Position numbers and translations under genes: made by a program. Under the pieces are notes generated by a model. That model did not search any database and had not been told where the DNA came from. It worked only from the letters and a program-made list of their open reading frames with translations. From NCBI GenBank assembly GCA_902784675.1, contig CACZVR010000002.1, positions 60,923 to 124,922 on the forward strand: a stretch of 64,000 bases of DNA, in the 5' to 3' direction. The DNA comes from an uncultured Bacteroidales bacterium. Its GTDB lineage: Bacteria > Bacteroidota > Bacteroidia > Bacteroidales > Muribaculaceae. Shown piece by piece: positions 14,167-63,572 of the stretch. How positions within the stretch are numbered: the stretch's first letter is position 1; each line of letters begins with the position of its first letter.

Positions 14167-14240
14167 CGGGGTGTAGCACAGTTGGTTAGCGCGCCACGTT
14201 CGGGACGTGGAGGCCGGAAGTTCGAGTCTTCTCACCCCGA
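14167..14240 (+). tRNA. tRNA-Pro (anticodon CGG)
   Basis: 74 bases fold as a full cloverleaf. The acceptor is CGGGGTG / CACCCCG with discriminator A. The anticodon stem is CCACG / CGTGG with loop TTCGGGA, and the T-arm carries TTCGAGT. No CCA is encoded. The 3' part of the gene is the prophage attachment core; integration keeps the tRNA intact. Confidence 0.95.
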
Positions 14241-14243
14241 CTC
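14227..14243. other. attL core (17 bp) inside the tRNA-Pro 3' end
   Basis: tcttctcaccccgactc, identical to 63556-63572. It covers the T-stem and acceptor 3' strand of the tRNA plus three bases. The integrase gene begins about 140 bases further in. This pair defines the prophage ends. Confidence 0.9.
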
Positions 14244-14298
14244 GATGTGGTCTAACTTGTTAGCAGTTAGCAAGTTAGACCACTTTTTCAAAAATAGC

Positions 14299-14345
14299 CG
14301 GGACAAAAACGGGACAAATAAAATTGGACGTTATTGGCCCTTTGT
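14299..14345. other. Left integrase arm-type site candidates
   Basis: Two copies of cgggacaa at 14299-14306 and 14310-14317, starting 11 bases apart, followed by gccctttgt at 14337. The same two words with the same 11-base spacing, followed by the same 9-mer, occur at the right end (63453-63506). They are therefore good candidates for integrase arm-binding sites. Confidence 0.6.
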
Positions 14346-14385
14346 TCAACACAGGTGGTGTTTCGCAAGAAATGTCATCAAAAAA

Positions 14386-15576
14386 ATGTTGACTCCTCGC
14401 AATCCAAAAAAATCCTTTGTGCTGCCGTACAAGCACGGCAACACCGATTATGTAAAGCAATTTACCTTACCTGTACTAAGGGAAAGCACAGAATGGTATA
14501 TCGAATTCTATGCCTTTGACCCTGCACAGGGTAAGCTCAGGCGCAAAAAAATAAAGATCAACAGAATCAAATCCATCGGCCGGCGCAGGGCCTATGCCCG
14601 TGAGGTCATAGGCAGGATCACTACCCAGCTGCAGCGCGGGTGGAACCCATGGATAGCACAGGACATCGGTGAGCTCCACCTATTCGATGATGTATGCGAT
14701 TCCTATGAGCGATACATCGATAAGATGTACAGTTCCGGGAACTACCGCAAGGAGACCTATGTCGGTTACAAGTCCTACATGAAGAACCTGAGGGGCTATG
14801 TGAAAGAGCACCCCATATATTATATGTACCAGATGGACCGGGCTTACTTAGTCACTTTTCTTGATCACATCTTTATTGACAGAGATAACGGAGGCCAGAC
14901 CAGGAACAATTACCTGTCATGGCTGGGGAACTTCTGCGGCTGGGCAGTTGATAAGAGTTACTTAACAACTCGGCCGACCGACGGCATTCCGTTCATCGAC
15001 CGCAAGCACCTGAAAAAGAAACGCCAGGTCATCCCCACGAACGTCGTCAAGCAGATATCAGTTTACCTGCAACAGAATGACCCATATTTCCTGTTGGCTT
15101 GCCAGCTGCTGTATAACTGTTTCATCAGGCCTGTCGAGATGACCAGGTTACGAGTGGGATGGTTCAACATCAAGGCAGGGACCATCACGATCCCTGCCGA
15201 TGCAGCTAAGAATAGAGAGACTATGGTAGTGACTGTTCCTAGGAGGGTATTGGCGCACGCAATAGAACTTGGCACCTTCCATGCGGCCAGTCAGGATTTC
15301 CTGTTTTCCATTGACCTGCGGCCGGGTGACCACCAGGTGGATCCTGTCATCTTCAGGCACCATTGGGCGGTGGTGAGACGTGCATTGAGCCTGCGCCCCG
15401 AATGGCAGTTCTACAGTCTGAAGGACACCGGCATCACCGAGATGCTGGACAGGAACATCGCCAGCATTGCCGTCAGGGACCAGGCCCGTCACAGTTCCTT
15501 GGCCATTACCGAGGTTTACACGCGTCACCTGCAGAGAGCGAACGATCAGGTGTTGTTCTGGGAAGGGTCACTCTAG
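14386..15576 (+). CDS. int: Tyrosine recombinase (prophage integrase)
   Basis: 396 residues from the ATG at 14386; the longer reading frame runs back through the tRNA and is not credible. The N-terminal half resembles the SAM-like core-binding domain of Bacteroidetes phage integrases. The catalytic half shows the first Arg in CFIRPVEMTRLR and a Lys in the beta-hairpin region PADAAKN. A box reading SLKDTG stands where HxxR is usual, followed by ARHSS and the nucleophile in TEVYTRH. The variant box is common in this Bacteroidetes subgroup as far as I know. Its last 9 bases overlap the last bases of the convergent tail gene. Confidence 0.92.
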   Translation: MLTPRNPKKSFVLPYKHGNTDYVKQFTLPVLRESTEWYIEFYAFDPAQGKLRRKKIKINRIKSIGRRRAYAREVIGRITTQLQRGWNPWIAQDIGELHLFDDVCDSYERYIDKMYSSGNYRKETYVGYKSYMKNLRGYVKEHPIYYMYQMDRAYLVTFLDHIFIDRDNGGQTRNNYLSWLGNFCGWAVDKSYLTTRPTDGIPFIDRKHLKKKRQVIPTNVVKQISVYLQQNDPYFLLACQLLYNCFIRPVEMTRLRVGWFNIKAGTITIPADAAKNRETMVVTVPRRVLAHAIELGTFHAASQDFLFSIDLRPGDHQVDPVIFRHHWAVVRRALSLRPEWQFYSLKDTGITEMLDRNIASIAVRDQARHSSLAITEVYTRHLQRANDQVLFWEGSL

Positions 15577-43911: not shown

Positions 43912-44114
43912 AATTGTTTGTTTTTTAAAAATTAATAATCATTGGTCTTGTTCTCGCGTAAAACCTTTTTACACTGCAAGCGAAGTATGCGGTGTTAGCG
44001 GCTAAGGCAAGGGCGCAGGGGAAAAATACTACCCCGTAGGGGCTGGAGATTTTTGCCCGGAGTGCATTTTACCCTTGCAGGCCGCGTGCCGCACTACCTT
44101 CGCGGTGTAAAAAG
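43912..44114 (-). ncRNA. Structured leader, copy B
   Basis: Second copy of the element at 28246-28446. Outer stem cctttttacac (43964-43974) with gtgtaaaaag (44105-44114), then gcgaag (43980-43985) with cttcgc (44098-44103). These bases differ from copy A but pair equally well. The inner pairings are the same as in copy A. The following bases 44115-44445 contain several minor hairpins and very short ORFs; I see no gene there. Confidence 0.6.
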
Positions 44115-44445
44115 TTTGGAGCGGGGTTAAGACCAAGCCACTACTAATGACCTAAAAAACAAAAATTATGGCCTCCCATCCCCTGCAATTCACGCGAACG
44201 GTTCGTCGAAATGGCAGCAGCCGGGAGTGATGAGCAAACAATGAAAAACTTCCTTATTCCGTGAGCCCCCTGGGGCGAACTTAATTCGTTGGGGCGTGTG
44301 ATGGGGGCTTCCCGCGCGCGAGCGGCGTTTCCCAAAAACAACGATGGCTACCCTCACGAGCAGCCACCGTCTAAGCAATTTTTAATCCAAAAGTCATTAC
44401 ATGTTACATATCAGTTCTTTCCAATCCGTCAACTATTGGCAAGAA

Positions 44446-45267
44446 TCATGCCACTTCCACGTAGATGTGGACAAGATCCGCCAGGTTGTTGTACACCGGC
44501 ACGCCCGTCGAGCGGATGCACAGGTATGTCACCCCGTTCTGGGAGTAATACAGTCCTTCCACCAGCTCCATGTTGTTGTTGTACGGTATCGGATTGTCGT
44601 GCGTGCCCTGCTCAGGCGATGCGGCCACCTCGGTAAACAGCGAGGCTGCCACATCGGGTGCCCATGAAGCCTGTGCCGTATGGTCCTGCAGCACCTTGTA
44701 CAGGCGGCGGCGGTAGGTGTATCGCTCGCCCGCCTTCAGCTGCTTGCCCATCTGGTCAATCCAGAGCGGGAACAGTTCCGGCACTTCCATGGCCTTCTCG
44801 TCCTCGAGGTCTGCAGCGTCATCCTTTGCCAGGATCACGGCCGCCGACAGCGTATCGATGCCGTCAGCCCCCTCGATGGTCTCGTCAGGTTCTGCAGGTG
44901 TCGGGTCGGGCAGCGTCTCAGCCTGAGCCATGCCGTTGTCCTGAGCCCACTGCATCAGTTCCGTTGCCCACTGTTTCGCTTTCATGCGCCACTGCTGCAT
45001 TGCCCTGTGCTCATCGCGGGCTTTCTTGCTGGAGATATCGCCCAGCACATTGTTCATGATGGCTTCCATGTCATCCGCGCTGTATTTGGCCCGGACGATT
45101 GCCGAGATGATCAGGTCACGGCGCCACACACCAGGCGGGAGTTCCGCCGTTTCGTACTCATAGCCTTCAGCCGTGTGCTCGATGTCAAACGCCACGGTGA
45201 AGATGTTTTGCCCGAGGTCCCTTCTTACGCTTACCAAGGGGGGCAAGGTTTCTGATTGAACTTTCAT
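44446..45267 (-). CDS. Phage fibre-region protein with carbohydrate-binding-like C-terminus
   Basis: 273 residues. Around 190-220, GERYTYRRRLYKVLQDHTAQ followed by ASWAPDVAASLFTEV is the pattern of the chitin/carbohydrate-binding modules found at the ends of phage tail proteins, and a similar strand set (YSQNGVTYLCI) closes the protein. The N-terminal part is helical and acidic in the middle. It starts 83 bases inside the reverse transcriptase gene, so it is read with the DGR operon. Confidence 0.65.
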   Translation of the reverse strand: MKVQSETLPPLVSVRRDLGQNIFTVAFDIEHTAEGYEYETAELPPGVWRRDLIISAIVRAKYSADDMEAIMNNVLGDISSKKARDEHRAMQQWRMKAKQWATELMQWAQDNGMAQAETLPDPTPAEPDETIEGADGIDTLSAAVILAKDDAADLEDEKAMEVPELFPLWIDQMGKQLKAGERYTYRRRLYKVLQDHTAQASWAPDVAASLFTEVAASPEQGTHDNPIPYNNNMELVEGLYYSQNGVTYLCIRSTGVPVYNNLADLVHIYVEVA

Positions 45268-46678
45268 GCTCTAGTCGGTCTGTTTTTAATAAGAATGATT
45301 CATAGTTGAACTTGCGCTTTACCTTGACCACCGAGAAACGGCGCTGTATGTTGCAGCACTTCCAGAAATATGTGGCGTTGCGGAACATCTTCCGTCGCTG
45401 GTTGAAGGTGTACTGATGGACACAAAAGCCCATGTACGAGTTTAGGCTGCAGACGTGGCGTTTCAGCAGTTTGAGGTTTTCCAGTGTCGGGCCGTCCTCG
45501 ATGATGTGGCGGCACAGCTCGTTGGTCTGCATCACGCGCCTGGTCATGTTGCCCAAGGTGCGGTTGGAGGTGTAGATCCTCCCAGGCTTGATCACGCAGC
45601 CGACGAACTTCACGCCATGCGTTGCCGGCTGCAGATAGAATTTGTCCTTGTGGAGCTGCAGGTGGAGGTGTTTCTTCAGCCATTGCATCGCCTTCAGGCG
45701 CAGGTCGATGATGAACTGCTTATCGTTCGCGATGATCAGCGCGTCATCCACAAAGCGGACGAAGGCCGCTCCATGGTATGCGCACTGTTCCACCATGAAC
45801 TCATCGAAGAACGACAGGTAGTAGTTGGCCAGCAGCTGCGATGTGATGTTTCCGATGGCCATGCCCTTATGCGGGGGCATCGTGAACAGCGACTTGTTGT
45901 CGGGCAGGTCATCCCACATCCACAGTGGCGAGCGCCGTTCGCACAGCAGCTGGGGCTGGTGGCGGATGGTCACCTCAGTCAGCCAGAGCAGCGTATCGAT
46001 ATCGCTGCCCTGGTATTCCTCCCGGATGAACGGTAGGAGCTTTGCCAGCAGGATATCCTTATCGATGGACATGAAGAAGCCGGATATATCGATTTTTCCG
46101 ATCCATGCCTCACGTTTGTAGCGCTGGCTGACCCGTTCTATCTGCTCCTTGGCGGTGAACACCGCCCTGAGGGAGCCATATCCCTTGCGGCAGTTGAACG
46201 AGATATCGCCCTGGGAGCGGAAGCGGCGTTCCAGGAGCGGTTCCAGGCGCAGCGTTATCCAGTGCTGGGCGATACGGTCACGGAAGGCGGCGGCAAAGAT
46301 CTCGCGGATGCGAGGTCTGGTGACGATGAAGCAGAACGCCTCGCTGGGCGTGTAAGTGCGGTCATGGACTTCGGCGACCAGCTGCCACAGGTCTTGCTCA
46401 TAGTCCATGCGGTACTCGTTGCACTGCTTCGCCCGGAGCTTATGCCTGAGGCAATCAAAATAGGCATCTACCCACCCTTCCTTTTCCTCGTTGTCAAGCG
46501 CGACCACCGCCCTACACGCGCGGGAATTGTTCTTGTTGTTGTTGTTGTTGACCTGGCCATTCCCGCCATGGAGATTCCACGCGTTAGAGGCGTCAAGCGA
46601 TGATGCGTGGGTTGCCCGTTTCCTAACTACAGCTTGAACTGCAGTACCACGCCCGTTTGATATGAGGGGATGAGCCAT
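45185..46678 (-). CDS. DGR reverse transcriptase
   Basis: 497 codons from the first ATG. RT motifs are clear: IDISGFFMSID (motif A region), the DGR-type motif IGNITSQ (about 274-280, where group II introns have QGxxxSP) and FVDD (about 309-312). It copies the TR RNA with errors at adenines and its cDNA replaces VR. The TR lies in frame inside codons 29-60, so either the protein really carries an Asn-rich N-terminus or translation starts later, for example at a GTG near 46510. No extra domain is visible. Confidence 0.92.
   Translation of the reverse strand: MAHPLISNGRGTAVQAVVRKRATHASSLDASNAWNLHGGNGQVNNNNNKNNSRACRAVVALDNEEKEGWVDAYFDCLRHKLRAKQCNEYRMDYEQDLWQLVAEVHDRTYTPSEAFCFIVTRPRIREIFAAAFRDRIAQHWITLRLEPLLERRFRSQGDISFNCRKGYGSLRAVFTAKEQIERVSQRYKREAWIGKIDISGFFMSIDKDILLAKLLPFIREEYQGSDIDTLLWLTEVTIRHQPQLLCERRSPLWMWDDLPDNKSLFTMPPHKGMAIGNITSQLLANYYLSFFDEFMVEQCAYHGAAFVRFVDDALIIANDKQFIIDLRLKAMQWLKKHLHLQLHKDKFYLQPATHGVKFVGCVIKPGRIYTSNRTLGNMTRRVMQTNELCRHIIEDGPTLENLKLLKRHVCSLNSYMGFCVHQYTFNQRRKMFRNATYFWKCCNIQRRFSVVKVKRKFNYESFLLKTDRLEHESSIRNLAPLGKRKKGPRAKHLHRGV
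46499..46593 (-). repeat. DGR template repeat (TR)
   Basis: 95 bases, matched by VR (47263-47360). Read on the minus strand it holds a run of five AAC codons, AAG, AAC and AAT in place of the varied VR codons. Differences to VR occur only at TR adenines, plus one missing AAC unit. The last 27 bases (tcc cgc gcg ... gtc gcg) are identical in both and act as the homing-initiation end. Confidence 0.93.
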
Positions 46679-46705
46679 AGTAACCGTAATCGCTATGACT
46701 GTCGT

Positions 46706-47164
46706 TCACCGCCTCAGGTCTTCATCACTGAACAGCTTCAGCTGCCGTGGACCGTCGTCCATGGGCGCGCTGGGCGGTGTGGCCGCCTTGCGCTGTTCAG
46801 CGAGCAAAGCCCTGTTTTTTCTGAGCCATTTTCCAGCCTGGTCGGCTATGACGTTCAGCATGTCAAGCGCTTGGGCGTACTGGCCGTGTGAGAGGGCGTC
46901 ACGCCGCACGCGGTTCATGAGCCGGTACGACGTTTTCACTGAGGTCATGCGCATGACCACTGCATTGATGCACTCCACACGTTCCAGCGTGCCGTCGGCC
47001 TGGAAGGCGAGCACCACGAAGTCCAGCGCCTCCTTGAGGTCGCGGATGAGCAGGCCGCCGAGCTCCTTATACGGCAATGACCGAGGCAATCGCTCGACCA
47101 CTGGAATTGACCACTCCAGCAGCCGTTCGATTTCGCGGTAGATAGATGCCTGATTCGGTTTCAT
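46706..47164 (-). CDS. avd: DGR accessory variability determinant (Avd-like)
   Basis: 152 residues from the ATG at 47164 (MKPNQASIY); the longer frame crosses the terminator and promoter. Helical throughout with LPRSLPYKELGGLLIRDLKE and a basic surface, as in the four-helix Avd proteins that form a barrel and bind RT and TR RNA. Position between VR gene and RT is standard. The last 20 residues are a charged tail. Confidence 0.85.
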   Translation of the reverse strand: MKPNQASIYREIERLLEWSIPVVERLPRSLPYKELGGLLIRDLKEALDFVVLAFQADGTLERVECINAVVMRMTSVKTSYRLMNRVRRDALSHGQYAQALDMLNVIADQAGKWLRKNRALLAEQRKAATPPSAPMDDGPRQLKLFSDEDLRR

Positions 47165-47168
47165 GCCG

Positions 47169-47198
47169 CAAAGGTAACACTTCGTAGCGAATTTCAAA
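47169..47198 (-). promoter_or_regulatory. Promoter of the avd-TR-RT operon
   Basis: -33 TTTG at 47195-47198, 18-base spacer, -7 TAccTTTG at 47169-47176. The ATG follows only 4 bases after the -7 box, so the avd transcript would be near-leaderless. Confidence 0.75.
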
Positions 47199-47221
47199 AA
47201 AAATCGAACCGCTTCGCGGTT
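47196..47221 (-). terminator. Terminator of the DGR target gene
   Basis: aaccgc-gaa-gcggtt stem followed by CGA and eight T residues on the minus strand. The T-run overlaps the -33 box of the avd promoter. Confidence 0.75.
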
Positions 47222-47224
47222 ATC

Positions 47225-47248
47225 GCTGGGGGCGTCAAAGCCCCCAGC
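47225..47248 (-). other. DGR target-site hairpin downstream of VR
   Basis: Perfect 9-bp stem gctgggggc / gcccccagc with a 6-base loop, 15 bases after the end of VR. In Bordetella phage BPP-1 a GC-rich hairpin of this size just past VR is needed for efficient retrohoming; this one matches in place and form. Confidence 0.8.
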
Positions 47249-47256
47249 TGTCAATT

Positions 47257-50200
47257 TCAAAACGCGACCACCGCCCTACACGCGCGGGAAATGTTCTTGG
47301 GGTAGAGGTTGGGGTTGACCTGGCCATTCCCGCCATGGAGATGCCACGCGATAGAGGCGTTGTATTCCGTTGACGTCCAGTGCCAATCGGCCGTCAGATT
47401 GGAGTAACGGCTGTTGGCTTGCGCGGCCGCGAAAATGCCGCCTTTCACCTGTTGCCAATACACCATACCCAGCTCGCCGAGCGTCGGCAGCCACCAGTTG
47501 TGCGCCTTGAACTTGTCGGCCAGGACTTCGCCCGGCTGGAGCGCATAGGTGGGCTGGTAGGCACATGCGAGCCCACGTCGCTCGTCACTCCGTTTAGGAT
47601 GCGGTTGCGGTGGCGGATGATCTGCAGCGTCTTGTACTGTCCCACATGGATGAAGTCGCCGATACGGAACGGACCGATATCTTCAGTGAGTTCCACGAAG
47701 CCCACGTCACCGACGGCCGTGTCACGGTTGTAGTTCGGGAACGATGCCATGGATGCCAGGTTGTCGATGTCGCCGTTACCATTAGCCGTGATGTTGATGA
47801 CCGGTGTATCATAGATGCTCGTGTACCCGTCCACTGTGACGTTTGCAACACCATCATTGGCATTATTGTACAGGCCCCATTGGTCGGTGATGACGTTGCC
47901 GCGCGATACAGCCAGGCGGTCAGCCGGATTGTTCGGGTTGATGTAGAAGCACAAGGCGATGACCGTCTTATACGACAGCAGCTCATCGCTGAAGGAGCCG
48001 TCGGCATAGACGTAATCGCCCTCACGGCAGACGTGCTCGCAGAAGTAGAAGCGCTTGGTGTCCTCCAGGACAACGCCATCGAGGCGCGTCACCCTCACCG
48101 TCACGTCCGCATAAGGCCCTACAGCCTCAGTGTCCATGGCCGTCACCGTGACGATGCCTGTATTGGGATCGATGGTGGCGAAGTTGTTCCTGGTTATCGA
48201 CCACTGCACGGCCGTGAAGTTGTTGCCTGCCGAGTTCAGACGCATCTGGTGGTCACCCAGGGACTCGAGGTACTTGCCCGTGATGATACGCACGTTCTCG
48301 ATCGTGGTCTGCGAATAGACGATGGTCAGCCCGTTCGTGCCATGGTCAACATCGCCCCAGGCCTGCAACCATGCCGCCTTGTCCTCGAAGCTGGGCGTGA
48401 CGGCCGTCAGCGTGATGGTGCCGGACAGCTTACAGTTGGAGCCGAGGGCGGCCAGCGCATTGAGCAGCGCCAGTCCCGAGGCGCCGGAGATGCGCCAGTC
48501 CATATTATCGATGTCCACTTTGTTGAGGTGGCCAATCGCCTGCTGGACGATGTACAGGGAGTCGGCCAGCGGCGTGTCCTTGATGGTGATCTCAGTCATC
48601 GCGCCATAGCCACCGATGGCCAGTGTCTCGAGGTTGCGGCAGCCCACCAGCGTCAACGCTTCCAGCGTAGCCGGTAGAGTGAGGTCTGTCAGCGAGCCCG
48701 TCGAGGGCAGCTTGACAGCCGTGAAACTCGTGCCCTCCACATTGATCTCCTCCAGGCGGACGCAGGCCGACAGGTCGAGCGTTCCGCTGGCCAGCGGTGT
48801 GTTGCGGTGGATGTAGCGTTTGATGTTCGTGGAGTTCACACGGACAGCCGGGGCGCTCCAGCGCACAGGGTTGTTCGTGCCCAGCGGGTTCACGGTAATC
48901 TGCTGGAGGCGTTTACCCGTGAAGCCGAACTCCGTCACAGTCTGGTACTGGTCCATGTCTCCCAGGTCGAACAGGTAGTCATTGCCACGGATCGCCAGTG
49001 CGGTATCGCCCTGAGAGGACACAGCGTTGAACGCGTGGGCCTCACCAGGCGCACGAAGCGCCGTGCCGCCCACGTTCGACGAGCCGACGGCGATGCGCGG
49101 GTACATCCATTTCGCGGGCTTGACGGTGATGTAGTGCGTACCTGTCGCACCACGCCAGGACAGACCGCCGGCAGAGGTCGCGCTGGCGAACTCGCCGTAC
49201 TGGCACCACGAGCTGATGAACATGATGCGGTCAACGAGCCACTGGTACTCCGACCAGCGCTGGGAGCCGCAGGACTGCGACAGCGCGTTGGTGTCGTTGC
49301 TGTACTCACCCGTCAGCTGCAGACGGTAGCTGTACTCATAGACGGCGCGCGCCTGCTCGTTGTAGGCGACAGCGGGGAAGTAGTCGGGCACGGACAGCAG
49401 GTAGTTCTCGAAGAAGCCCATCACGCTGCCGCCTCCCAGGGTGGACATGGCGGCCAGCATGTTGCGCATGGTCTGCTGGATGTTGGGCTGTCCCGTTTCG
49501 GGCGTGTCACGGTCCCAAGCCTCCTCGAGCAGGCAGTAGAACGTGCTTTCCTCAGCCTGCCAGTAGTTCTCGCCGCTTCCGTCCTTGGTGTGTTCCTCCA
49601 CCCAGTACGGCTTGCGGTTCTGGCCGACGTTGTTGGTCTTCAGCACCGTGTCCACATCGTCCTGCATCCAACGGATCTTCAGTGTCACAGGGTCGGTGTA
49701 ATAGTAGGTGTTCTTGCAGCGGTTGTCGGTACCGGCGATGAGCTTGATGAAGCAGTAGTGGTACAGCGCGTCATCCACGTGGAAGTACTCGGCCGCATGA
49801 GCCTTGAAGTGTGCCAGGCGTGCGGCCTTGAAGGCCTCGTTTTTGGCCTGGCTGGACTGTGACGTGTTGAAGGCGTCGCCCGTGAAGTCCTCATACTGCT
49901 CGAGCAGGTTCAGCTGGGTGTTGTCGGGGCCAGCGGGCACCCAACGGCCAGTCTTCTCGTCATAGCGGTACAGGTCGTAGGATCCCGTGAGCCATTTCTG
50001 AGGGGACAGGCGCGAGCCGGAGGTGCGCTGCAGGGCGTCCAGCGAGCCGTTGAAGAATTCGATCTTGGTGCTGTGCAGGTACACGAAATTGAAGAAGGCA
50101 CGGACAGCGGCGAGTGCGGAAGCGTCACTCGGGATGTCGTCCGTGGTCTTTCCGAAGCCAAAGTTGATGTTCTTTGCCCCGTTGTACATCCACGCCTCCT

Positions 50201-52943
50201 TGTCAACGTCGTAGGTGATGTTGGTGTCGTCCCAGGGCATATTGAAACGTGCCAGCGGCACGTCGTTGTCGGCACCCTCCACCATCAGCATGTGGCCGGT
50301 GGTGTTCTTGTTGAAGCCGAAGGTCGGTTTGTCGCCCTTGCCGGCGCCGAAGGTCATCAGGTTGCGGAACTCATAGCGGCTGTTGGCCTCATCCCAGACA
50401 AAGAACAGGAAGGGCTTTTCGAGCACGGCCAGGCGTGCATTGGGGAACGTGGCGAACTGTCCAGGAGTGCTCATGTTGCCGTCACGCATCATCTGTTTGA
50501 AGACTTCGGTGAAGGCCTTGGTGAGGCCTAGCTTGTGGGACTGCATCGAGGAGGCGAAGTTGACCTTGCCCACGAGTTTCGTAGCAGCATATTCCTCTGC
50601 CTGGATGATATAGCCCGCACCGGTCTCCCCTTTCGGATTGCCCTCATCATCGAGCAGCTGGGTGTTGTCGGTGGTCTTGTATTGCTGGTTCCACCAGTAA
50701 TACGTCATGGCCGTGGTACCCTGTCCCTTGTTATCAAGGTTTGTCAGGGTGCCGCTGTGTTCCTCATCATCCGGCATGTGGATCTCGATACTGATTCCGT
50801 GCTGGGTATTGTTTTCCATACCCTTGTGCAGCAGCGGTCCCCTGTGGCCGATGATATTGTACTTGCCCAGACACTTGTCCCAGTCGATGCGGCCACGGTC
50901 ATCCAGGATATCGTTGGCAGTCTCAAAGGCGATCTTCTCGGCCGTGGTGGACATCGAGGCCTTGTAGTCCTGCATGACAGCCGACGAGCTGAGCGCCGAG
51001 CGATAGCAGCGCATACCGTAGATATCGATATCGCTGGAGGTGTTGCCGATGACCATTACCGCATTCTCGGGAGTGAAGCGGTCATCCGTGTCATAGGCAA
51101 ACTCCCTCTCGAGACGCCCGTTGAGGTACATGCGCAGGATGTTCGGTGACGCCTCACCTCCATACTGGGCGGTGATGGCCAGGTGGAAACGCTTGCCCTC
51201 TGCCCAGGCCAGATCCTGGTCGGGCTCGGTGTATTTGTTCGAGGTCAGCAGCATGGCACGAGAGGGCATCAGACGGAAGCCCCACCATACGCCTGAGTTG
51301 CGGAGACTGCCCAGCTCGATCAGCGGTTCCTCATCGTCCACGATGTTATCCACCACGAAGTCCATCTCCCAGACGAAACTGCGGCCCGTATTGTCGGCGC
51401 CGGTGAAGTCTGCCATGGGATTGTGATGGATGGTCAGCTGGCGACCTGCAGGGATGCGCAGCACCCTCACCGTCGAGCCTTCGTAGGTTGTTTCCTTCCA
51501 GCCGTCGGTGGAGAAGTCGAAGTTAACGAAGTCCTCAGCCTGTGCCAGGATGTCACCGTTCACCGTGTTGATGATGGTGGCGGGATTCTCCTCAGCGTTG
51601 GAGCGCACAGCGGGCGAGAGGACGAAGGACGCTCCCGCATTGGGCGCGAAGCTCGCCTCATTCTCCAGGCCGAAGGCCACGGGATCGTGGAGCTCGTTGC
51701 CCTCGCTGTCCTCAATCAGCATGACGGCATCGATCCAGGTGTCACTCACCCCGTCGATGGCCAGCTGCGTCGTGAAGGGGTATTTGTTCCTGGGGGCGCC
51801 GTTGAACGACCAGCGTGCATATTCGGTGGTGTTGTCGTTGGCATCCACCAGCCGCATGATGACGTTCATGGGATTTCCGTCAGGCGTGAGGACGGACCAG
51901 TCGAAGAAGTGGACGTCGGTCCAGTTCGAGAGTCCGTCTGAGATATTGTTGACGGACACCACAGGGGCATCGACACCGAGTACCAGGTACTCGCTCATGA
52001 CCCAATCCGTGGCCAGGTCATCATTGTACTTCAGCTGGGCCTCCACAGTGTGGAGACCAGGTGTAAGAACATCCGTCAAGCCCTGCACCTCGCAGGAGTA
52101 GGGCGTGTCGGCATCGCTGTGCGTGATGCCGTCGATGACCAGCTCTTTGCCTGTACCGCCGCCGTCGAACTTCAGCAACAGCGTCTTTGAGATGTTGCCG
52201 GTGATATAATACTGCAGGGTAAGCAGCGCGTCCTGATCGAAGGGAACCTGGAATGCCGTTGCGGGCGTCAAGGTCATGTTCACGATGTTGACCTGGAAGG
52301 TGAACGGGATGGCCGTTGAAGCCTTCTCAGCGGCGGCCGTGATGCGGACATGGACATTGCCGGAAGGCAGGATGCCCTTCATGGAGATGTAGTTGTAGCG
52401 GTTGGACTCCACAGTGAAGCGTCCGCAGGTCACCCAGCGCTGGTTGTTGTCCATTCGCTGGACGGTGAGCGTCACCCAGTCGGGGACTTCCTGAGCCACA
52501 CCGCCGCTGTTGTACAGATATACCGCCTTGAGACGGACGGTGAAGTCGTTGGTCATCTGCACGGCAACAGGGGTGTTGCCCTCGAGGGCCAGCGTGTAGG
52601 CTGTCTCGGCACCGCTGCCCTTGGGGATGATGATGTCCGTGATGGGAGTGATCGCCTCGTGGTCGTCAAACCAGGTATTGTAGTCCTCGAGGGTTGCGAA
52701 GCCCACCAGGTGAAGTTCCTCGTCTTCATCTTCATAGGTGCGGAGGCATCCGATCTTGCCGCCGAACATCTGTTTAATGAAGCGCTCTATTTCAGCAAAG
52801 TTGACTCCCCATTTGTAACCGTCGGGGATTTCGGTGCCATACTTGGTGATAGCGGCTCCCGTGTTATTTTCCCCACCCCAGTCGTCCGTCATGGAAGTCA
52901 GAAGGTTAAGACCGGGGATGATGATTAATTTCTCTCTTGCCAT
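47257..52943 (-). CDS. DGR-diversified tail/receptor-binding protein (frame break near 47573)
   Basis: About 1895 codons if one base is added at GGG 47572-47574; as given, the main frame stops at 47445 after 1832 codons. It contains an N-terminal tail-attachment-like part, Ig-like segments, a LamG/concanavalin-like domain (about 500-690), a mixed region, a leucine-rich-like stretch near 1560-1640 and a BIG2-like domain near 1690-1740. The C-terminal C-type-lectin-like domain has WWLPTLGELG, WTSTEY and SRACRAVVAF, but in the shifted frame. VR encodes its last ~32 residues. The N-terminal MAREKLIIIPGL start has no competing start. It probably binds the host surface. Confidence 0.85.
47263..47360 (-). 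repeat. DGR variable repeat (VR)
   Basis: 98 bases at the 3' end of the target gene. Relative to TR the varied codons now read Ile, His, Pro, Leu, Tyr, Pro and Ile where TR has Asn codons. VR has nine codons between GTC and TCC; TR has eight. Confidence 0.93.
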
Positions 52944-52967
52944 ATTGATTATGATGTGATTATGTGA

Positions 52968-53144
52968 TTAGCTATGAAACCAGCCACGGTCATGCGACCA
53001 GCCGTAGTGATGGAACCAGGCAGAATACACTCCTGCGAGCTTGCGCCAAACGAGGTGTACGCCGTTCTTGACGACATATACTGCCTGCAGCCCGCGTTGA
53101 CCTATCGAGAGGTCACCGATTTCTCTCAGTTTCTCGACAATCAT
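52968..53144 (-). CDS. Small Trp/His-rich phage protein
   Basis: 58 residues, with its ATG in an ATGA overlap with the gene before it. It begins MIVEKLREIGDLSIGQRGLQ, has a strand AVYVVKNGVHLVWRK and a Trp/Gly/His-rich end (SAWFHHYGWSHDRGWFHS), a composition seen in small fibre-associated proteins of Bacteroidales phages. It lies between two tail-fibre genes. Function unknown. Confidence 0.65.
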   Translation of the reverse strand: MIVEKLREIGDLSIGQRGLQAVYVVKNGVHLVWRKLAGVYSAWFHHYGWSHDRGWFHS

Positions 53145-53806
53145 TCTTCCTCGTAAACTAAATAGATGGTGTTCTCGCTCAGTGTTCCTGCCTCTCGGGC
53201 GGCCTCAAAATCCTCCGGCTCTATCGGCTCATGGCGCAGCACGGCATTGCCGTCAACACCGTTGCGCACGCGCATCTCGTCTGTCGAGCCGTCGCTGTAG
53301 TGGAAGGTGATGATATTGTAGCCGCCGCTTTCTGTGCTCTCCTCGATGGTGGTGCTCACGATGCCACGGCCGTCGCGACCTGACACTGCCAGGAACACGC
53401 CACCGTCCAGCCAGTGCATCTCCGCATTGAACTCCACGCCTGAAGGAATACCGGCATCAGCGGTCACGTCTTTCACATCGACCACCGTGCGCTGCTTGAA
53501 GCGTTTCTTCTTGCCCTGGTCATCGCGGCAGAGCACCTCCACCGAGTAAAGGCCTTCCAGAATGGTTCCCGGGTCTTCAGCGATGGCCACATTGCCTTGC
53601 ATGTAGGCCTCTATCTTTGTCTGTGCCGTACCCTTCGAGAGCACCACATAAACCGGGTAGTCCTCATTCGGGTAGAAATCATAGGGAGTGATCTCTGTCT
53701 GGCCGTTATTAAGGGTAACGACCTGCAGTGTCAACTTGATCGCCAGCTTCAGATCGTTGCCCTGGACATGGAAGATTCTCGTGGGATTCTGTTCTGTATT
53801 TTTCAT
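53141..53806 (-). CDS. Phage fibre/baseplate protein
   Basis: 221 residues. N-terminal beta domain (FHVQGNDLKLAIKLTLQVV) with BppU/Ig-like character, then a GRDGRGIVSTTIEESTESGG linker motif typical of tail-fibre hinge regions (SGRDGRGI), and a C-terminal helix-strand end. It probably joins baseplate and fibre. Confidence 0.7.
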   Translation of the reverse strand: MKNTEQNPTRIFHVQGNDLKLAIKLTLQVVTLNNGQTEITPYDFYPNEDYPVYVVLSKGTAQTKIEAYMQGNVAIAEDPGTILEGLYSVEVLCRDDQGKKKRFKQRTVVDVKDVTADAGIPSGVEFNAEMHWLDGGVFLAVSGRDGRGIVSTTIEESTESGGYNIITFHYSDGSTDEMRVRNGVDGNAVLRHEPIEPEDFEAAREAGTLSENTIYLVYEEE

Positions 53807-63555: not shown

Positions 63556-63572
63556 TCTTCTCACCCCGACTC
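63556..63572. other. attR core (17 bp)
   Basis: Exact repeat of 14227-14243. To its right the sequence returns to host DNA. Confidence 0.9.

Follow-up and report, generated by a model that had tools for sequence, protein, structure and literature searches.

A diversity-generating retroelement of a Bacteroidales prophage with its template repeat embedded in the reverse transcriptase frame and a conserved hairpin beside it

How a diversity-generating retroelement (DGR) delimits its template has been worked out mainly for Bordetella phage BPP-1, in which the template repeat (TR) lies between bbp7 and brt and, according to the record (AY029185), brt starts 144 nt after the TR. The BPP-1 template RNA is said to control the initiation and termination of complementary DNA (cDNA) synthesis (PMC12875486). 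Overlap of the TR with the open reading frame (ORF) of the reverse transcriptase (RT) has been a named class since 2012 as structural group 3 of DiGReF, and the consulted part of that report contains no test of translation and no RNA element (PMC3521204). The Bacuni phages F1 and F2 of Bacteroides uniformis share the order Avd, TR, RT and have DUF1566-type targets, but their TR is in a separate small ORF just before the RT (PMC8143477). It does not differ in length from the variable repeat (VR). The Hankyphage is also a Bacteroides phage with a DGR (PMC6199706). In Bacteroides phage BS-TP1 from sewage (PQ571274, a record of 111.7 kb) the annotated RT coding sequence (CDS) spans the TR, the VR is one codon longer and 16 of 16 TR/VR mismatches are at TR adenines. 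Its record gives the host strain by name, and no paper listed in a literature search states the host species.

Here we describe the DGR in a window of 64,000 nt (the whole stretch of DNA analysed, from contig CACZVR010000002.1 of an uncultured Bacteroidales bacterium) and its comparison with these systems. The window resembles BPP-1 in the order of target, Avd position, TR and RT, in the location of the VR at a tail gene's 3' end and in its DGR RT fold, and its RT is 37% identical to that of BS-TP1. An initial annotation of the window had listed the DGR parts without three features that we report here, namely a one-codon length difference between TR and VR, the embedding of the TR in the RT frame and an RNA element before the TR. 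We consider it probable that the template RNA of this DGR is part of the RT message, with the TR embedded in the RT frame and the hairpin at its front edge.

The template repeat within the reverse transcriptase frame

The features on which this reading rests are as follows, in window coordinates.

45185..46678, minus strand: RT ORF, 497 aa, with IGNITSQ and FVDD motifs (RVT_1 E 2.3e-13; PHROG reverse transcriptase E 4.4e-67)
46496..46593, minus strand: TR, 98 nt, inside the RT frame (from the TR/VR match and the RT frame)
46605..46652, minus strand: conserved RNA hairpin before the TR and inside the RT frame (from covariation; model hit 46600-46669, E 1.4e-14)

The RT, which the initial annotation had recognised by its two motifs, is confirmed by these profile matches and by a sequence-profile search in which the DGR RT 8ub7, the BPP-1 enzyme, was the top match; Foldseek with the RT model placed 8ub7 second behind the G2L4 RT. 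In the window 33 nt separate the end of the TR/VR match from the RT core, by which we mean the sequence from 46462 (YFDC) onward where the RT query began. The parts had been described as present and in order, and all are indeed present, but the TR lies inside the RT ORF and not between genes. The TR and its spacer are thus not outside the RT coding sequence as in BPP-1, and the overlap of the TR with an end of the RT ORF corresponds to DiGReF group 3.

In order to compare this arrangement we used 115 loci, consisting of the window and RT relatives minus five that were too partial (L083, L084, L105, L115, L160), with L002, L003 and L006 counted once as L129, L130 and L156. A TR/VR pair was found in 91 of the 115. 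In 53 of these the open RT frame contains the whole TR, and in 38 the TR is outside it. Throughout the clade of the window the RT frame opens before the TR and stays open through it, in many members with an ATG a few codons ahead of a conserved NGR stretch. Both front motifs occur in 40 of the 115 loci (near-copies included), the first being in the RT frame in 40/40 and the spacing a multiple of three in 39/40. TR (in the RT) and VR (in the target) share a register in 48 of the 53 embedded loci, which as related loci amount to few independent observations. A further argument from the divisibility by three of motif-to-RT-core distances was left out because the target frame already makes TR lengths vary in steps of three.

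Placing the RT in a tree, as the initial annotation had proposed, puts the window in a 24-row branch with support 99/99, and the TR is embedded in every row of it. The tree holds 84 of the 91 paired loci after short rows and copies were dropped, and includes one very long row (L086) whose placement is meaningless. The branch consists of 19 viral contigs and five genome bins (the window, L050, L053, L054 and L055), the latter four titled Prevotellaceae or Bacteroidales. As a separate observation, near-identical DGR RTs were found in contigs titled Saccharibacteria, uncultured bacterium and Elusimicrobiaceae (L062, L068, L069) beside Prevotella relatives; these are probably mis-binned.

An open frame upstream of the RT could also be accidental, in which case the DGR would be an ordinary one whose RT starts at or after the end of the TR and whose template RNA, like that of BPP-1, in effect codes for no protein. 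An in-frame GTG at the end of the TR fits this explanation, as does the presence of some ATG, GTG or TTG between TR and RT core in 27 of the 53 embedded loci. AlphaFold (14 sequences) likewise predicts RT residues 1-60 to be unstructured (pLDDT about 26, most of the remainder 65-97). If the TR is embedded in the message, as we propose, this N-terminus would be a passenger, its letters dictated by the RNA. We nevertheless regard an accidental frame as improbable, since length changes come in whole codons and an ATG precedes the TR in 46 of the 53 embedded loci. No ATG follows the TR before the RT core in 46/53, compared with 6/38 of the other group, where one is present in 32 loci. The RT CDS of BS-TP1 is also annotated from before the TR, although an annotation is no proof.

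Pairing before the template repeat and synonymous constraint through it

The hairpin was predicted with RNAalifold from an unfitted MAFFT alignment of 22 sequences, the window among them, from which a model of 70 positions was then built; these were drawn from 32 listed sequences by excluding L049, L134, L159, L053, L056, L059, L086, L009, L060 and L078. It consists of an outer and an inner helix, with a conserved GUUA located in a one-sided loop. Eleven of its 15 pairs show compensatory change and 97.8% of alignment cells are paired. The covariation score was 0.609, compared with 0.208 +/- 0.021 for shuffled alignments and at most 0.141 for slid registers, and in 500 shuffles none reached the hairpin on four of five measures while 6 reached it on the fifth. 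An alignment of 40 sequences fitted to the model scored 0.801, a figure that leans to the structure through the fitting.

At E<=1 the model gave 28 hits in 90 sources and 32 hits in 32 sources, building sequences included, all on the RT strand. It matches 35 of the 53 embedded loci (window counted) against 9 of the 38 others, and two more of the latter (L007 and L057) match under laxer filters only. Distances to the TR were listed for 44 of the 60 hits, 43 of them with a known TR, the other 16 being without a TR/VR pair on the locus, outside the dataset or the window itself. In 41 of the 43 the hit ends between -9 and +14 nt from the TR start; in L134 and its copy L136 it lies 48 nt off the TR. 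Among the comparison records BS-TP1 has a weak hit directly before the TR (E 0.016) and record MT836212 a strong one (E 2.3e-9). Under stricter filters the hairpin was found at E<=0.01 in 3 of 198 genomes drawn from the family, the window's own included. Rfam 15 gave no match in window positions 44000-53500 at E<=1 and none at gathering score in six relatives.

Hairpin spans were taken from a hand-chosen list made up of L007, L057 and 43 of the 60 hits. The list excluded 11 near-copies and the weak hits, namely L056, L058, L059, L067 and L086 (72-78 nt, all divisible by three) and L106 (61 nt). Within that list the hairpin is in the RT frame in 36 loci, and these show six lengths of 67-85 nt, all leaving a remainder of one when divided by three, and the nine other loci, among them L080 without a known TR, show 63, 64, 65 and 76 nt. 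By eye, single folds suggest a similar structure before a TR outside the RT frame in L061, L072-L074, L081 and L093, titled Alphaproteobacteria or proteobacterium.

The front of the RT is also constrained at the codon level, as synonymous change scored in windows of 15 codons relative to expectation is suppressed from the start codon to the RT core in two sequence sets. In the set of 7 sequences it amounts to 0.18-0.81 of the expected level where the window begins at codons 0-70 and then to 1.21, and in the set of 10 sequences 0.33-0.86 for windows starting at codons 0-65 and then 1.06-1.19, staying at 0.88-1.20 over the rest of the RT.

Conserved pairing at this position could instead act in expression, as an attenuator, an element of RNA stability or an RT leader, or could act as DNA, in either case unrelated to cDNA synthesis. 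In embedded loci the hairpin does come directly after the RT start, and an inverted repeat after the VR is known to aid cDNA integration (PMC12875486). Against this, the position of the hairpin follows the TR and not the start of the RT, even in 9 of the 38 loci with the TR outside the RT frame, and we hold a role of this kind to be unlikely. The location at the 5' border of the TR, where cDNA synthesis should end, leads us to propose a stop or docking element, which would be the simplest role for the hairpin.

Several observations weigh against a hairpin-bordered template within the RT message. The embedded-TR label requires five changes over the 84-row RT tree, 7 of the 53 embedded loci have no ATG before the TR and may be open by chance, and in the window the GTG near the TR end could, as seen in the sequence, start a shorter RT. 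The hairpin model misses 18 of the 53 embedded loci at E<=1, finds nothing in BPP-1 at E<=10 with filters off and gives only E 1.1 in the Bacuni phages. Taken alone, the window hairpin exceeds chance folding by only a modest margin (z -1.52, with 16 of 200 shuffles doing as well). When 14 non-embedded sequences (13 with the TR outside the RT frame, and L080 in which no TR/VR pair was found) were aligned without fitting, the inner helix alone was recovered, with 4 pairs of which 2 have compensatory change. In the 7-sequence set synonymous change dips elsewhere too, in scattered windows down to 0.74, and falls to 0.11 at the RT 3' end, a part that overlaps with the next gene in the window.

Differences between the template and variable repeats

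47260..47360, minus strand: VR, 101 nt, in a different frame from the long tail ORF (from the TR/VR match)

The VR exceeds the TR by 3 nt (101 against 98 nt). The initial annotation had placed all base differences at TR adenines, which applies to the substitutions once a gap of one codon is allowed in the AAC tract. Six of seven placements of this gap leave 8-10 substitutions at adenines plus one C/T difference at the outermost edge, the seventh adds one G>C, and gapless placements give 34 and 46 mismatches. The chance of 8 of 8 changes falling on the 26 A among 95 bases is 1.3e-5, which supports adenine-specific differences with a one-codon gap.

The annotation had also suggested comparing VR and TR across relatives. 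The pairs available for this, in the 91 loci, had been selected for having 4 or more mismatches, 70% or more of them at A, so that the 1,408 mismatches at A against 82 elsewhere, counted over 91 pairs with 3 duplicates among them, do not test the bias independently. Of the 88 distinct pairs, 69 align without an inner gap, while the gap is a multiple of three in 16 and 2 nt in 3. The VR is longer in 12 of the 16 and shorter in 4, and 14 of the 16 gaps fall in AAC/AAT tracts. A rule that the VR is always one codon longer than the TR was accordingly dropped in view of the 69 pairs without a gap. Outside the 88-pair set the remote VR of L003 is one codon longer, L031 and L034 show no difference and L033 has a 97-base match of equal length; BPP-1 and MT836212 show no length difference.

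Comparison of loci with the same TR and different VRs gave seven pairs, in two of which (L007/L008 and L150/L151) the VRs differ by one codon in the tract, the aligned contig stretches being 99.6% and 99.8% identical. In a third of the seven, L053/L054, the VRs differ by one base at the alignment edge. The first two pairs bear on whether the codon was lost from the TR through an AAC contraction by slippage in DNA replication rather than in reverse transcription. The number of AAC units in the TR does vary among near relatives, as replication slippage would produce, yet the TRs of L007/L008 and of L150/L151 are identical while their VRs are one codon apart in the tract. We think it rather doubtful that replication accounts for the difference and favour slippage during reverse transcription. 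Indels in multiples of three in AAC repeats have been explained by slippage before (Wu et al. 2018, as cited in PMC12875486), so our data are supportive and not new; relative to that account, as cited there, they add counts from 88 distinct pairs and the same-TR comparisons.

A side observation concerns the TR of L003 (8863-8968), which carries AAC>GGC and AAT>TAT matching the letters of its VR 28 kb away, neither of which is present in the TR of L004 (3511-3616), on a contig 98-99% identical to that of L003. This could be mutagenic homing into the TR itself, conversion of TR by VR or an assembly chimera.

The cassette, its prophage and a proposed shared RNA

46706..47164, minus strand: Avd, 152 aa (PHROG 3206 'Avd protein of DGR' E 1.6e-9)
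47225..47248, minus strand: GC-rich inverted repeat after the VR, arms 47248-47240 and 47233-47225 (from sequence and fold)
47445..52943, minus strand: tail gene long ORF, 1,832 aa, with its frame ending before the VR (CotH below cut-off; PHROG 24896, function unknown, E 2e-88)
47562..47563, minus strand: junction at which 130 bases present in L002 and L030 are missing (from alignment; placement uncertain by a few bases)
14167..14241, plus strand: tRNA-Pro (cgg), the integration site (ARAGORN)
14182..15576, plus strand: integrase ORF beside the tRNA, its true start probably later (PHROG integrase E 7.6e-29)
14227..14243, plus strand: left copy of the att core, 17 bp, found by genome search, with an identical copy at 63556
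63556..63572, plus strand: right copy of the att core, identical to the left

On the minus strand the cassette runs from the tail gene through VR, GC hairpin and Avd to the TR within the RT. Avd, as proposed by the initial annotation, is supported by the PHROG match and is 66-85% identical to eight relatives; its matches to the Avd models of Pfam and NCBIfam score under the thresholds of these models, and a PDB search with Avd returned nothing credible. The 101 nt around the GC hairpin fold with a z of -3.48. The RT 3' end overlaps the next ORF (a CBM_5_12 match) by 83 nt at window 45185-45267, where synonymous change is also low. We file the cassette as a DGR because it has an RT with a DGR-type SQ motif and DGR RT fold, a TR/VR near-repeat differing at TR adenines and an Avd-type accessory protein, with a target that is broken in this assembly as the VR is not in frame at the 3' end of the target gene.

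The VR had been assigned to the 3' end of a tail gene of about 1895 codons, which is not borne out since the ORF has 1,832 codons and stops at 47445. From 52943 to 47257 there are 5,687 nt, a number not divisible by three, and the VR is in another frame. In two relatives, L002 (1,950 aa) and L030 (1,912 aa), the VR closes the long tail ORF, so intact copies of the target gene exist. Outside the 130-nt gap the window is 89-95% identical to them at the DNA level, and the L030 tail gene is 95% identical to that of the window across 5.2 kb. A programmed frameshift into the VR was considered and rejected, given that L002 and L030, with their 130 additional bases, do without one. In 19 of the 24 rows of the window's RT clade the frame through the VR is open for 1,929-2,308 codons, measured from the last stop before it. 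It is open for 902 codons in L141, 237 in L138 and 141 in the window, and runs off the locus in L146 and L148; with L141 and L138 also short, the window is not the sole member with a short VR frame.

The cause of the broken frame is a lesion or an assembly fault. That it is an artefact or a minority variant, with the VR in frame in the natural phage, is quite conceivable if somewhat short of probable. The assembly is in 131 contigs and 86% complete, and apart from the changes at adenines, the gap of one codon and a single base at the edge VR and TR show no decay, but the junction is a clean absence of 130 nt relative to two relatives with flanks of high identity. Having lost its frame before the VR, the window copy would not display VR variants in this assembly, so the suggestion that the phage changes its receptor-binding tip does not follow for this copy. 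For the family it is a plausible reading of the sequences, as the VR ends the tail ORF in L002 and L030 and at E<=0.1 Pfam Lcl_C is hit by 10 of 10 VR-bearing target domains, that of the first member scoring under the family cut-off.

The prophage, which like the full set of DGR parts had been proposed at the outset and is upheld here, is about 49.3 kb long and is bounded by a 17-bp repeat that consists of the tRNA-Pro 3' end TCTTCTCACCCCGACTC plus two bases and has only two copies in the window (14227 and 63556). We take the DGR to belong to a temperate phage of Bacteroidales. Across the genome (2.70 Mb, 131 contigs, 86% complete) there is a single RVT_1 match and, besides TR and VR, no TR-like copy at E<=0.001. 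A second terminase relative (55%) at G000:C21:26102-27745 is perhaps from another prophage. Two phage types carry related RT-Avd-TR cassettes, whose RTs are 69-85% identical. One (window, L002, G102) has the window's terminase (90-95%) and the VR beside the TR, the other (L003/G005, G022, G094) has no such terminase at E<=1e-10 and the VR 28-30 kb away. L003 looks Mu-like by eye only, and L130 and L156 are the same records as L003 and L006.

With a message that is also the template, the RT frame would open before the TR and pass through hairpin, TR and a short spacer before reaching the RT domain. RT with Avd would reverse-transcribe the TR from the RT message, with errors at adenines and an occasional slip by a single AAC unit. 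At the front edge of the TR the hairpin would mark or stop the cDNA end or dock the RT-Avd complex, and the cDNA would replace the VR at the 3' end of the tail gene, ahead of the GC hairpin. TR overlapping the RT and AAC slippage are already published. For the hairpin, the coding constraint through the TR and the synonymous suppression we found no description in the open-access literature searched; key papers lie outside it and an earlier description is possible.

A message that contains both hairpin and TR would bring ribosomes and RT together on one RNA. We tentatively suggest, as a possibility that we rate below even, that a branch of DGRs uses a dedicated 5'-border hairpin which sets the cDNA end or docks RT-Avd. 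In a clade of Bacteroidales phages the template RNA may then have been absorbed into the RT coding sequence, one RNA serving as message and template, so that translation and reverse transcription would compete and could limit mutagenesis. A conserved hairpin beside the TR in many DGRs, and inside the coding sequence in one clade, is a concrete element that can be tested. Should a single molecule serve as both RT message and template, mutagenesis would be tied to the level of the enzyme, unlike in systems with separate transcripts.

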